From assembly GCF_026242055.1 (NCBI RefSeq), contig NZ_JAPJDL010000025.1:1-64000 (forward strand): DNA of 64,000 nt, written 5' to 3'. This DNA is from Lentzea sp. NEAU-D7 (GTDB taxonomy: Bacteria > Actinomycetota > Actinomycetes > Mycobacteriales > Pseudonocardiaceae). How positions within the stretch are numbered: position 1 is the stretch's first letter; each line of letters opens with the position of its first letter. This document shows positions 1,600-5,882 of the stretch, piece by piece. The notes below the pieces were generated by a model. That model saw only the letters and a program-made list of their open reading frames with translations, had not been told where the DNA came from and searched no databases. Position numbers and translations under genes: made by a program.

Positions 1600-1720
1600 G
1601 TTGGTCCTCCTCGTTCGCTGGGGGCACCCCGTCCAACGGAGCAGGCCCCGACGGAATTCCCCGCGTGCGCCCGGTCACGCCTGGTTTCAACTTTTTGTGG
1701 ACGTCTTCAACTCGACGTTG

Positions 1721-1733
1721 TACGGTCCCCGCC
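1721..1733 (+). promoter_or_regulatory. candidate -10 element of a leaderless promoter
   Basis: TACGGT (TANNNT type) ends 7 bases before the ATG of the ABC substrate-binding protein gene and no Shine-Dalgarno sequence is present, the pattern of leaderless actinobacterial transcripts. No clear -35 was found. Confidence 0.4.
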
Positions 1734-2636
1734 ATGAAGCCGCGCCTGCTCGTGACCTCGCTGCTCGTACTGGGGCTCGCCGCCTGCGGGTCCACGCCTG
1801 AGTCCACTCAGACGTCCACTCCGCCGTCGTCCGACCTGTCCACGGTCAAGAAGGACGACGCGCTCGCCGCGCTGCTGCCGCCCGAGATCGCCTCGGCCGG
1901 CACGTTGAAGGTCGGGTCGAACATCCAGAACCCGCCGAACAACTTCTACGACCAGGACGGCAAGACCCCGATGGGGTCCGAGGTCGACCTGATCAAGGCG
2001 ATCGCCGCCAAGCTCGGGCTCAAGGCCGAGCACAGCGACATGGCGTTCAGCTCGCTGATCACGAGCCTCGAGACCGGGCGCGTCGACGTGACGATGGCCG
2101 CGATGAACGACACCGCCGAGCGCCAGCAGAAGATCGACTTCGTCGACTACTTCACCTCCGGCATCACGATCATGGTGCAGAAGGGCAACCCGCAGGGCGT
2201 CAAGACGGTCGACGACCTGTGCGGCAAGGGCATCGCGGTGAACCTGGGCAGCTCGCAGGAGCAGTTCGGCAAGGAGCAGAGCCAGAAGTGCGTGGCCGCG
2301 GGCAAGCCGGAGGTCACGCTCAGCGTCACCGACAGCGACACCGGCAACCAGAACCAGCTGCGCACCGGCCGCGTCGCCGCGATCCTCAACGACCTGCCGA
2401 CCGCCGTCTACGTCGCGAAGACCGCGGGGGACGGCCAGTACTTCGAGGTCGTGCCGCTCGCGCCGATCAACGGCGGCCCGTACGGCATCGGCGTCGCGAA
2501 GAAGAACGCCAAGCTGTCGGAGGCGATCAAGGGCGCGCTGCAGTCCCTGATCGACGACGGCACCTACGACAAGATCGTCACCACCTGGGACATCAAGCAG
2601 GGCGCGATCACGAAGGCCACCATCAATGGCAAGTGA
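1734..2636 (+). CDS. amino acid ABC transporter substrate-binding lipoprotein
   Basis: A 300-residue family 3 (SBP_bac_3) solute-binding protein. A lipoprotein signal peptide ends in the lipobox LAAC with Cys18 as the lipidation site. The mature part has the family pattern GTLKVGSN, then PMGSEVDLIKAIAAKLGLK, and VTMAAMNDTAERQQKIDFVDYF. It would bind a polar amino acid or opine outside the membrane. It overlaps the permease gene by 11 bases, so the importer genes are one operon with the aminotransferase-regulator fusion. The ligand cannot be predicted from the sequence alone. The start is at the ATG that begins the signal peptide; upstream in-frame sequence is antisense to thioredoxin. Confidence 0.92.
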   Translation: MKPRLLVTSLLVLGLAACGSTPESTQTSTPPSSDLSTVKKDDALAALLPPEIASAGTLKVGSNIQNPPNNFYDQDGKTPMGSEVDLIKAIAAKLGLKAEHSDMAFSSLITSLETGRVDVTMAAMNDTAERQQKIDFVDYFTSGITIMVQKGNPQGVKTVDDLCGKGIAVNLGSSQEQFGKEQSQKCVAAGKPEVTLSVTDSDTGNQNQLRTGRVAAILNDLPTAVYVAKTAGDGQYFEVVPLAPINGGPYGIGVAKKNAKLSEAIKGALQSLIDDGTYDKIVTTWDIKQGAITKATINGK

Positions 2637-3471
2637 CACCCGCCTGAACGACGCCGGAGAAGAACTGACGGGGAAAGACCTGGTCGTCGTGCCGCTGCGC
2701 CACCCCTGGCGGTGGTTCAGCGGCGCGGTGATCGTGCTGGTGATCGCGGGTCTGGGCTGGGCGATGTCCGAGGCCCAGATCCAGTGGGAGGACGTGCCGG
2801 GGTTCTTCACGCACCCCGTGATGCTCGAAGGCCTGCTCAACACCATCGTGCTCGCGCTCGCCGCGCAGGGCGGCGCGATCGTCCTCGGCGTGGTCGTCGC
2901 GCTGATGCGGCTGTCGGCCAACCCCGTCGCGCGGTGGTTCGCGGTCGGCTACATCTGGCTGTTCCGCGGCCTGCCGGTGCTGCTGCAGATCCTGATCTGG
3001 TTCAACCTCGCGCTGGTGTTCCAGAACATCAGCATCCCCGGTGTGTTCTCCGTGCCCACCAACGTGGTCATGACCGCGTTCGTCGCGGCGCTGCTGGGAC
3101 TCGGCCTGAACGAGAGCGCCTACATGGCCGAGATCGTCCGCGCCGGCCTGAGCAGCGTCGACGAGGGGCAGACCGAGGCGGCCAAGTCGATCGGGATGAC
3201 ACCGATGACGACACTGCGCCGGGTCGTGCTGCCCCAGGCGATGCGCGTGATCATCCCGCCGACCGGCAACAACTTCATCAACATGATCAAGGGCACCTCG
3301 ATGGCGTCGGTGATCGCCTTCCTGGAGCTCATCCACGCCGCGAACAACATCTCGTCGCGCAACCTGGAGATCATGGAAACCCTGTTCGCCGCCGCGGCCT
3401 GGTACCTCGTGATGGTGTCCCTCGCGTCGGTCGGGCAGCACTACCTGGAGCGTGCTTATGGCCCTCGTTGA
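2626..3471 (+). CDS. amino acid ABC transporter permease
   Basis: A 281-residue HisM/GlnP-type inner membrane permease with about five to six transmembrane helices. The EAA loop that docks the ATPase is seen as [20 protein letters not shown] at about 184-203. The N-terminal cytoplasmic extension of about 40 residues before the first helix is longer than in simple HisQ/M proteins but usual in actinobacterial copies. Only one permease gene is present, so it probably acts as a homodimer. It overlaps the genes on both sides. Confidence 0.93.
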
Positions 3472-4216
3472 GGCGATTGGGGTCCGCAAGTCGTTCGGCC
3501 ACACCGAGGTCCTCAAGGGCATCGACATGGAGGTCGAGCGCGGCGAGGTCGTCTGCCTGCTCGGCCCCTCGGGCGCCGGCAAGTCGACGTTCCTGCGCTG
3601 CGTGAACCACCTGGAGACCATCGACGCCGGCCGCATCTGGGTCGACGGCGTGCCCGTCGGGTTCCGTGCCGCGGGCGGCAAGCTCTACGAGCTGCGCGAA
3701 CGCGACGCCGCCCACCAGCGGCGGGACGTCGGGATGGTGTTCCAGCGGTTCAACCTCTTCCCGCACCGCACGGCGCTGGAGAACGTCATGGAGGGCCCGG
3801 TGCAGGTCCTCGGGCGCGGTCGCGCGGAGGTGCGCGCGGAGGCGCTGGCGTTGCTGGAGAGGGTGGGACTGGCCGAGAAGGCCGGTGCCTATCCGGCCCA
3901 GCTGTCGGGCGGTCAGCAGCAACGTGTTGCGATCGCGCGCGCTCTGGCGATGAAGCCCAAGCTGATGCTGTTCGACGAGCCCACGTCCGCGTTGGACCCG
4001 GAGCTGGTCGGCGAGGTGCTCGACGTGATGACCTCGCTGGCCCGCGACGGCATGACGATGATCGTGGTCACCCACGAGATCGGCTTCGCCCGCTCGGTCG
4101 CCGACCGCGTGGTGTTCCTCGTCGACGGCGCGGTGGTGGAGTCCGGCACACCGACGGACGTGCTGGACAATCCGCAGCAGCCGCGCACGCAACAGTTCCT
4201 CGCAAAGGTGCTCTGA
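3458..4216 (+). CDS. amino acid ABC transporter ATP-binding protein
   Basis: A 252-residue GlnQ/HisP-type ATPase. Walker A is GPSGAGKST, the signature is [15 protein letters not shown], Walker B is [14 protein letters not shown] and the switch His lies in VVTHE. A roughly 20-residue insertion rich in charged residues sits between the second strand and the Q-loop (GMVFQR), as in some actinobacterial relatives. An in-frame GTG two codons upstream is an alternative start. The gene overlaps the permease by 14 bases and ends one base before the TTG of the fusion gene. Confidence 0.93.
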
Positions 4217-4217
4217 C

Positions 4218-5882
4218 TTGATCGACGCCTCGTACCTCGCCCAGTTCCGCGAACCGGAGGGGTATCTCGACTTCGCCCGCTTCGGCCCGCCGTCGCTGCC
4301 GGTGGTCACGGCCACCGCCCGCCTGATGGAACAGGCCTCGCTCGCCGGACCGTCCACAGTGGACACGCTGATGCGCGAGGAACAGCGGGTGAAGGCCGCC
4401 GTCGCGCGGCTCTGCCGCTCGGACACCGACCACGTCGCGTTGGTGCCGAACACGTCGATCGGCCTGTTCCAGGCGGCCTTCGGGCTGTCCGGGACGGTCA
4501 TGTACTCGGCGGCGGAGTTCCCGTCCAACACCTACCCGTGGGTGCGGGCGGGCCTCCCGTCGGTCGTTCTCGACGGCCCGGTGCACCCCGCGGCCGTCGC
4601 GACCCACCTCACGCCCGAGGTCACCGCCCTGTCGGTGTCCGCTGTGGACTTCCGCACCGGCTACCGCGCGGACCTGGCGGCGTTGCGCGAGGCCGTCGGC
4701 GACCGGCTGCTGGTCGTGGACGGCATCCAGGGCTTCGGCGTGGTCGACGAACCGTGGGAGGCCGCCGACGTGCTGGTGGTCGGCGGCCAGAAGTGGCTGC
4801 GGGCGGGGTGGAGCACCGGTTTCGTCGTGCTGTCCGACCGCGCCCTGGAACGCCTGTCGCCGGTGCTGTCGGGCTGGACGGGCGCCGTGGACGCCGGCCT
4901 GTTCGACGACTCGGTCCACGACGCCGCCCCGGACGCCGCCTCCTGGAACATCACCAACCTCTCGCCGGTCGTGTCGGGCGCCTTCGCGGAAGCGCTGGAA
5001 CTCGTCGAACTGGCCGGGGTCTCCTCGCTTGACTCGGCGGTGGCCGAGATCGTCGCGGAGGTCGAGGAGATCGTCCTGGCGAGCGGCGGCAAGATCGTCT
5101 CCGCGCGCGAACGCCGCGCCGGAATCCTGGCTTTCACCATGCCCGAGGCCGCCTCGGTGGTCGGCGAGGCGTTGAACGCCTTCGGCATCACCGCCACGGT
5201 CCGCCCGGAGCACGTCCGCCTGTCACCACACGCCACCACCTCGCGCGGAACGCTGGAGCGGCTGCGCGCAGCCCTGAAGTCGCTGTCCGGCACGGCCTCC
5301 TCGCCGATCCCGGCGGCGCTGTCGGCGTTGGTGCCGACCATCGACAGCCTCGCCTCGGCCCTGGGCCCGGACACCGAGGTCGTCGTGCACGACCTGACCA
5401 GGCTGCCGAACTCGATCATCGCGATCGCCGGTTCGCTCACCGGCCGCAAGGTGGGCGGCCCGATGACCGACCTGCTGCTGGGCCTGGTCCGGCGCGGCAC
5501 GACCACGGACATGCCCGGCTACGAGACCTACGCGCCGGACGGGCGCGCGATCTGGTCGTCGACGACGTTCGTGCGCGATGCGGCGGGCGTCGCCGTGGGG
5601 TGCCTGTGCGTCAACAAACTCGCCGCGCATGAAGCTTCCGGTCCGGTGGAGTCGTTTCCGCAGGACGTGGACACGCTTCAGCGGGTGCTCGTGGAAAAGG
5701 CGATCGCCGACGTGGGCGTGCCGGTCGAGCTGATGAAGAAGGTGCACAAGTCCCAGGTCGTCCGGGTGCTGGACGAGGCCGGGTTCTTCCTCATCCGCGA
5801 CTCGGTCGACCACCTGGCGGGTGTCCTGGAGGTCACCCGGTACACGATCTACAACTACCTCAACGAGAACCGAGGGACCTGA
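4218..5882 (+). CDS. class V aminotransferase fused to a DauR/YheO-like PAS-HTH regulator
   Basis: A 554-residue two-part protein starting at a TTG. Residues about 1-350 are a fold-type I PLP enzyme of the aminotransferase class V/cysteine desulfurase group: the PLP-contacting Asp is in VVDGIQGFG and the Schiff-base Lys in VGGQKWLRAG. Residues about 375-475 match the YheO-like PAS domain of D-arginine regulator DauR (EVVVHDLTRLPNSIIAIAG, then SSTTFVRD and GCLCVN). Residues about 490-550 match the HTH_22 domain (AGFFLIRDSVDHLAGVL, then TRYTIYNYL). It is the last gene of the importer operon. By analogy to MocR regulators (GntR HTH plus aminotransferase), it may sense or transform the imported amino acid. 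Whether it is catalytic, regulatory or both is unknown. The reading frame is continuous through the linker, with no sign of a frameshift. Confidence 0.85.
   Translation: MIDASYLAQFREPEGYLDFARFGPPSLPVVTATARLMEQASLAGPSTVDTLMREEQRVKAAVARLCRSDTDHVALVPNTSIGLFQAAFGLSGTVMYSAAEFPSNTYPWVRAGLPSVVLDGPVHPAAVATHLTPEVTALSVSAVDFRTGYRADLAALREAVGDRLLVVDGIQGFGVVDEPWEAADVLVVGGQKWLRAGWSTGFVVLSDRALERLSPVLSGWTGAVDAGLFDDSVHDAAPDAASWNITNLSPVVSGAFAEALELVELAGVSSLDSAVAEIVAEVEEIVLASGGKIVSARERRAGILAFTMPEAASVVGEALNAFGITATVRPEHVRLSPHATTSRGTLERLRAALKSLSGTASSPIPAALSALVPTIDSLASALGPDTEVVVHDLTRLPNSIIAIAGSLTGRKVGGPMTDLLLGLVRRGTTTDMPGYETYAPDGRAIWSSTTFVRDAAGVAVGCLCVNKLAAHEASGPVESFPQDVDTLQRVLVEKAIADVGVPVELMKKVHKSQVVRVLDEAGFFLIRDSVDHLAGVLEVTRYTIYNYLNENRGT

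Follow-up and report, generated by a model that had tools for sequence, protein, structure and literature searches.

In a group of soil actinobacteria, a PLP-dependent enzyme domain, a sensor domain, and a DNA-binding domain are encoded as one protein directly behind the genes of an amino-acid importer. In the 64-kb stretch of Lentzea DNA that we analysed (the window), a single frame at 4218-5882 on the plus strand, with a TTG start and zero internal stops, encodes a protein of 554 aa. Three domains, all exceeding the Pfam gathering scores, were found in it: Aminotran_5 (residues 82-324, E 4e-9, 36.3 bits against a cut-off of 21.5), a YheO-like PAS domain, PAS_6 (residues 369-466, E 2e-25, 89.3 bits against 27), and HTH_22 (residues 491-549, E 3e-19, 69.2 bits against 29.6). 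The PLP enzyme domain as a whole covers 4218-5282 (residues 1-355, with D168, Q171, K192, and R334 invariant), the PAS domain 5322-5615, and the HTH_22 domain 5688-5864, which includes the segment VTRYTIYNYLNE. Hereafter, AT denotes the enzyme part and REG the PAS_6/HTH_22 part. The Aminotran_5 match, together with the PLP lysine and aspartate, marks AT as a class V PLP enzyme, and PAS_6 followed by HTH_22, both over their cut-offs, is the build of a YheO-type regulator. Thus, the one continuous frame with a PLP domain, a YheO-like PAS domain, and HTH_22, which had been noted in a first-pass annotation, was confirmed. We could not find a class V enzyme fused to PAS_6/HTH_22 described in the open-licence PMC literature, among the matches listed.

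Three genes precede the fusion on the same strand, encoding a family 3 substrate-binding lipoprotein (SBP_bac_3, 1734-2636; Pfam), an amino-acid ABC permease (BPD_transp_1, 2626-3471), and an amino-acid ABC ATPase (ABC_tran, 3458-4216), the last two identified using both Pfam and NCBIfam. The stop codon of the ATPase gene lies at 4214-4216, and the fusion starts one base beyond, at 4218. Since all four genes overlap or nearly touch, we read them as one operon. The combination of SBP_bac_3, a permease of amino-acid type (HEQRo_perm_3TM), and an ATPase is that of a polar amino-acid ABC importer. R130 and D220 of the substrate-binding protein (SBP) are invariant in 78 rows and align with R75 and D157 of GlnBP, the Arg and Asp that hold its alpha-amino acid ligand. 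In addition, Q65, N69, N70, and N219 are invariant, and positions 66 and 170 vary. These residues fit an alpha-amino acid ligand, and say little more. The NCBIfam equivalog ranks of the importer, all below cut-off, are ambiguous: the permease is nearest to cystine, the ATPase to glutamine, and the SBP to StpK7, followed by Lys/Arg/Orn and cystine. We therefore dropped the ranks as a guide to the substrate.

The first-pass annotation had proposed a unit that senses, imports, and transforms an unusual or D-amino acid. The unit stands, as the four genes stay together while most of their outer neighbours change between genera. The D-amino acid is not supported: among the four operon proteins scanned with HMMs and the neighbours compared among themselves, we recognised no D-amino-acid gene adjoining the operon, and no gene or paper supporting a D-amino acid or D-arginine substrate was found (open-licence PMC literature, among the matches listed). 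That function was dropped. Rhizobium etli encodes an enzyme 31% identical to AT in the neighbourhood of RidA and of an importer (44% for the permease, 62% for the ATPase), and RidA may hint at an enamine or imine product. Rid deaminases are treated in parts of PMC5619798 that have no direct bearing on the fusion system.

The species distribution showed that the full-length fusion is present in 24 of 24 Lentzea genomes. In a sample of the family, 49 of 150 genomes matched at E up to 1e-60, comprising 33 full-length fusions and 16 enzyme-part-only matches, one of which (G395) keeps the HTH. Each of the 49 has exactly one copy, fused or enzyme-only. Five of the 246 genomes in a phylum sample matched at E up to 1e-40, namely, the window genome and four with enzyme-only homologues. 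Furthermore, we compared the best 80 of 238 relatives from the named collection, which span Lentzea, Saccharothrix, Umezawaea, Kibdelosporangium, Amycolatopsis, Herbihabitans, and Pseudonocardia, and also include records named Nocardia, Mycobacterium, and Mycolicibacterium. The gene order SBP-permease-ATPase-fusion is kept in 77 of these 80, and AT and REG share one open frame in all 77 complete loci, in several genera. The three exceptions are L105, a fusion without the importer; L107, whose importer is gone and REG broken; and L109, which has lost importer and REG. Across the importer-less loci, the PAS domain is damaged or lost in three of four (L107, L109, and L142, with L105 as the counterexample). 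In L142 (5578-7248), PAS is swapped for a low-complexity stretch rich in Ser, Ala, Gly, and Val; HTH_22 and the candidate operator described below (5523-5559) stay, and the importer is gone. In the 28 loci compared, the outer neighbours mostly differ between genera and some are common; for instance, a thioredoxin-like gene adjoins the operon in four of them. A neighbouring radical-SAM-like protein with an apparent intein-like insertion was seen by eye in L058 (1845-3437) and L109 (4461-5987). Across the order, there were 29 PAS_6 matches in 19 genomes; eight are AT fusions, and the others lie in frames of 207-426 aa, except one of 577 (G424:C160). The recurrence of one frame in all 24 Lentzea genomes and all 77 complete loci is far beyond chance, and the fusion is real and old.

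The two halves could be independent activities, translated together and co-expressed with no crosstalk. Conservation is low in the AT-REG linker (mean 0.50 in the alignment of fused rows), which argues against a tight coupling of enzyme and sensor, and both REG with an importer but no enzyme and enzyme-only forms exist. However, a mere translational fusion sits less easily with the single frame retained in all 77 complete loci across several genera. This retention argument is itself weakened, because partners of the enzyme vary: in two genomes of one genus (L022 5837-8128 and L143 5487-7760), the enzyme domain and a zinc alcohol dehydrogenase share one frame. L022 was the one of the two that was scanned, and its dehydrogenase part exceeds the cut-off of HpnZ TIGR03366. 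Taken together, we regard the reading without crosstalk as doubtful.

The DNA in front of the operon bears on what REG might do. Upstream of the SBP gene, we found two tandem dyads that form a candidate operator, TTCAAC-N5-GTGGAC at 1686-1702 (TTCAAC-N5-GTTGAC in other genera) and TTCAAC-N5-GTTGTA at 1706-1722, both given on the plus strand. The consensus is TTCAAC-N5-GT[TG]GAC-N3-TTCAAC-N5-GTTGTA, and the window site 1686-1722 agrees at 24 of 25 template positions. Leaving aside the same site on the opposite strand, the next-best score in the 64 kb is 16. This genome-unique candidate lies inside the promoter region 1600-1733 named in the earlier reading, and it supports the self-contained unit of importer, enzyme, and regulator. 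All 80 kept loci have the element: 75 with 20-bp spacing (21-25 of 25) and five Mycobacteriaceae loci with 22-bp spacing (21-23 of 23). It ends 12-124 bp upstream of the approximate start of the SBP gene in all 77 importer loci and adjoins the enzyme start in the importer-less L105, L107, and L109, the L109 copy (21 of 25) being apparently decayed.

The pattern was built from fused loci, and presence there is thus expected by construction; the test lies in uniqueness and in absence elsewhere. Scores did not exceed 16 of 25 in the 25 REG-less loci (285 kb). In genome-wide searches with up to 3 mismatches, exactly one site was found in each of 24 Lentzea genomes, and a reversed-pattern control gave 0 sites in the same 24. 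In the family sample, the element occurs in 36 of 150 genomes, that is, in 33 of 33 fusion carriers and 3 of 117 others. Two of these three (G395 and G399) hold relics of the four-gene unit. The third (G415) has a site with 3 mismatches and, within 10 kb, no match to the operon proteins or to the neighbour proteins of L058; we take it as chance. In the 33 carriers, the element lies 2332-2752 bp before the fusion start, which is the length of the three importer genes.

In addition, the element appears to contain a promoter. The 31 aligned sites, all of the 20-bp form, depart from dyad symmetry at position 17 (C in 29) and position 36 (T in 31). At position 14, 15 of them have T and 14 have G, and the T at 41 is invariant though it lies outside the dyads. 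These positions together point to a promoter of the form TTGAC or TGGAC, 17 bp, TANNNT within the operator. On this reading of the 31 sites, the predicted -35 of the window is TGGACG (1698-1703, plus strand; TTGACN or TGGACN elsewhere), inside dyad 1, and the predicted -10 is TACGGT (1721-1726, plus strand), 17 bp past it, with TANNNT in 31 of 31 sites. The candidate operator would thus double as the core promoter. The Mycobacteriaceae sites, with their 2-bp longer spacing, are without a clear TTGAC-17-TANNNT promoter. In the window (1721-1736), the predicted -10 is so near to the SBP ATG (1734) that the Lentzea transcript may be leaderless; in contrast, L065, for example, has a longer leader with GGAGG.

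The same layout suggests the sign of the regulation. An activator bound at the dyads might recruit or realign RNA polymerase once its ligand is present, and it would suit such an activator that the -35 departs from the consensus in Lentzea (TGGACG) and is not clear in Mycobacteriaceae. Nevertheless, dyad 1 spans the predicted -35 and dyad 2 extends into the predicted -10, so that a protein bound there would occupy the core promoter. Moreover, EnuR is a repressor, and its two predicted operators lie over the core of a sigma-70 type promoter (PMC8739950). Activation is therefore unlikely in our view.

Stand-alone homologues of PAS_6/HTH_22 were compared in 20 loci; L185 gave no row. For homologues with a [YF]T[IV]YNYLN helix, a tandem score of 18-21 of 23 was reached within 3 kb upstream in seven of eight; L165 has a TIYNYLN-like helix, yet scores 14 with no tandem element upstream. 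In L166 and L176, only one dyad of each pair is strong. Homologues with other helices, including the second YheO-type protein of Lentzea (L163), reach at most 15, and 0 of 12 reach 18. The association of helix and tandem dyads gave a Fisher p of 1e-4, with the cut of 18 picked after the scores were known. Four of the seven positives come from one genus, which brings the number of independent cases closer to four. Thus, in a clade of PAS_6/HTH_22 regulators, a TIYNYLN-type helix appears to go with a TTCAAC-N5-GTTGAA-like candidate site, an association drawn from few lineages.

The surroundings of these regulators vary. In L176 (2508-6678), the genes of a stand-alone REG with a TIYNYLN-type helix and of an amino-acid ABC importer are divergent, and dyads lie in the gap that separates them; this importer is 38% (permease), 60% (ATPase), and 28% (SBP) identical to that of the window. 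The L166 REG adjoins genes annotated as M20 peptidase, class V enzyme, and RidA, and the L169 homologue lies beside a cluster that looks by eye like a peptide importer. In L027, L175, L177, and L178, tandem dyads lie about 1.1 kb upstream of the related regulator, and a dehydratase-like PLP gene (by eye) precedes it in L027, L175, and L178, the three loci whose ORFs were read. Importer and REG-type regulator with dyads can therefore exist apart from the enzyme, as can the enzyme apart from them, and the fusion brings the two together. A PDB profile search at E up to 0.01 gave no solved structure for the regulator profile. A Streptomyces PAS regulator is compared with MmyB-like PAS domains in a part of PMC10717218.

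The active site of the enzyme half appears intact. K192 (GGQKWLRAGW) and D168 (VVDGIQ), which correspond to the PLP Lys and Asp of the family, are invariant in 79 fused rows, window included. K192, D168, Q171, F101, R329, R334, and H338 are also invariant in 31 fused, stand-alone, and distant members. For three Lentzea pairs, dN/dS is 0.11-0.15 in the enzyme part and 0.03-0.07 in REG; for the fourth, most distant pair, it is 0.25 and 0.19, respectively. The alignments thus indicate a PLP site that is intact and under selection.

The AlphaFold model of the fusion is moderate (pLDDT 78, pTM 0.60). A fold search with residues 1-369 of this model retrieved class V enzymes, with C-DES (Z 33.7), PvdN (33.5), and a carbon-sulfoxide lyase (33.2) tied in the top rows, and the identity of the fold matches is 14-20% (50 rows). 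Cysteine desulfurases, kynureninases, PvdN, cystine lyase, and hercynylcysteine-sulfoxide lyase were among the matches listed in a PDB profile search (60 rows of 113). The enzyme half reaches no named NCBIfam family cut-off, in either the window protein or the relatives scanned. For SufS, the window protein matches no desulfurase family at E up to 0.1, and the relatives scanned score 20-76 bits against a cut-off of 475.1; for EgtE, the window protein has no match at E up to 0.1, and five of 10 relatives score 27-54 bits against 400. Desulfurases carry a persulfide Cys in the region matching window residues 318-340, and in the aligned columns a Cys is absent from the window protein and 28 of 31 rows. 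Judged by profiles and modelled fold, AT is placed in the lyase/desulfurase/kynureninase branch of class V, nearer there than any named transaminase family. From this family placement alone, beta-elimination or C-S/C-N lysis would be more likely than transamination. Calling AT a class V aminotransferase, as was done at first, is therefore right about the class V PLP domain and unsafe about the activity, since its nearest listed solved relatives are desulfurases, lyases, PvdN, and kynureninase.

The history of the enzyme bears on whether it still works. In a quick tree with several open forks, enzyme-only homologues of other classes branch outside the fused group and others fall among the rows of the family, and the state 'fused or fusion relic' takes as few as 3 changes. 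Given one copy in each of the 49 family genomes that matched, the fused copy seems to occupy the slot of the enzyme. The stand-alone enzyme genes are without an importer and share no telling common neighbours, so the role of the enzyme need not be tied to import. Could catalysis nevertheless have been lost, leaving the PLP domain as dimeriser and amino-acid sensor, as in a MocR-like receptor, with PAS as a second input? EnuR dimerises via its aminotransferase domain and binds its inducer at PLP (PMC8739950). Against such a receptor stand the regulator-free homologues in other classes and families, branching outside the fused group, and the one copy, fused or enzyme-only, in each of the 49 family genomes (E up to 1e-60). 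Furthermore, the L109 enzyme frame survives the loss of importer and regulator with a dN/dS of about 0.11 against its relatives, although that loss may be recent. We consider the receptor reading improbable.

The last alternative, an assembly or annotation artefact joining two genes, for which we found no supporting point, has negligible probability and is refuted, since all 24 Lentzea genomes and all 77 complete loci share the frame. The first-pass annotation had named such a join, and also a catalytic Lys that is not conserved, as findings that would overturn it; the second fails too, with K192 unchanged in the 79 fused rows and the 31 diverse relatives.

The reading that we favour, and hold to be fairly probable, is a PLP enzyme tethered to the predicted repressor of its own operon, the whole controlling the import and breakdown of one alpha-amino acid. 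Without substrate, dimers would bind via HTH_22 at the tandem dyads 1686-1722, over the predicted -35 and -10, and keep the importer operon low; by family likeness, dimerisation would take place through the fold-type I enzyme domain. An alpha-amino acid would be bound by the SBP, imported by the permease and ATPase, and processed by the enzyme domain. PAS would then read the substrate or its keto-acid or enamine product, the DNA would be released, and importer and enzyme would rise together. A more tentative extension, possible and at present a conjecture, is a catabolic enzyme that senses itself: the PLP domain would make or clear the molecule read by the tethered PAS, so that its own substrate flux would set transcription of importer and fusion through the one operator in each genome.

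Fusions of a PLP-enzyme domain with a regulator are familiar from MocR, and the present one looks like a second, independently built example with unrelated DNA-binding and sensor parts. It combines an apparently intact enzyme with a candidate operator predicted to the base pair and present once per Lentzea genome. Whether an enzyme can report its own flux to its own promoter becomes a question that a single protein, a single 37-bp DNA, and a single importer would suffice to test. In addition, a DNA-site prediction is offered for a clade of PAS_6/HTH_22 regulators.

Trigger enzymes such as PutA, BirA, and NadR also unite enzyme and DNA-binding regulator in one protein; their folds and pathways are unrelated to those of the fusion. 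The SufS/C-DES/EgtE/PvdN/kynureninase branch supplies the best profile and fold matches among the matches listed, but the identity of 14-20%, scores far under the NCBIfam cut-offs, and the lack of a Cys at 318-340 set AT apart from it. With YheO/DauR-type regulators, the fusion shares PAS_6 and HTH_22 in the same order. However, its REG sits behind a PLP enzyme, with a TIYNYLN-type helix and a TTCAAC-N5-GTTGAA-like candidate site. DauR is linked to D-arginine genes of the dauBA type; among the matches listed in the open-licence PMC literature, we found neither its DNA site nor its inducer. The early label of a DauR-like regulator keeps its Pfam pair, but the implied function is not supported, as nothing in this analysis points to D-arginine or any other D-amino acid, and the fusion is not shown to be a DauR.

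The closest parallel is with MocR, GabR, and EnuR, in which a single chain likewise combines a fold-type I PLP domain with a DNA-binding domain. In these proteins, an N-terminal GntR-type winged HTH precedes a C-terminal class I/II (aspartate aminotransferase-like) domain, whereas the fusion has an N-terminal class V domain (Aminotran_5), a C-terminal HTH_22, and PAS between. The first-pass annotation had seen this order as the reverse of MocR; the arrangement is genuine, with HTH_22 at residues 491-549 and no Pfam match to GntR at E up to 1, and the fusion is not a MocR member. A further difference is that enzyme-only homologues of AT suggest real catalysis. According to PMC8739950, EnuR is a MocR repressor of an importer and catabolic cluster. 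By analogy, the best reading is that the fusion resembles MocR repressors such as EnuR in its working and differs from them in its parts.
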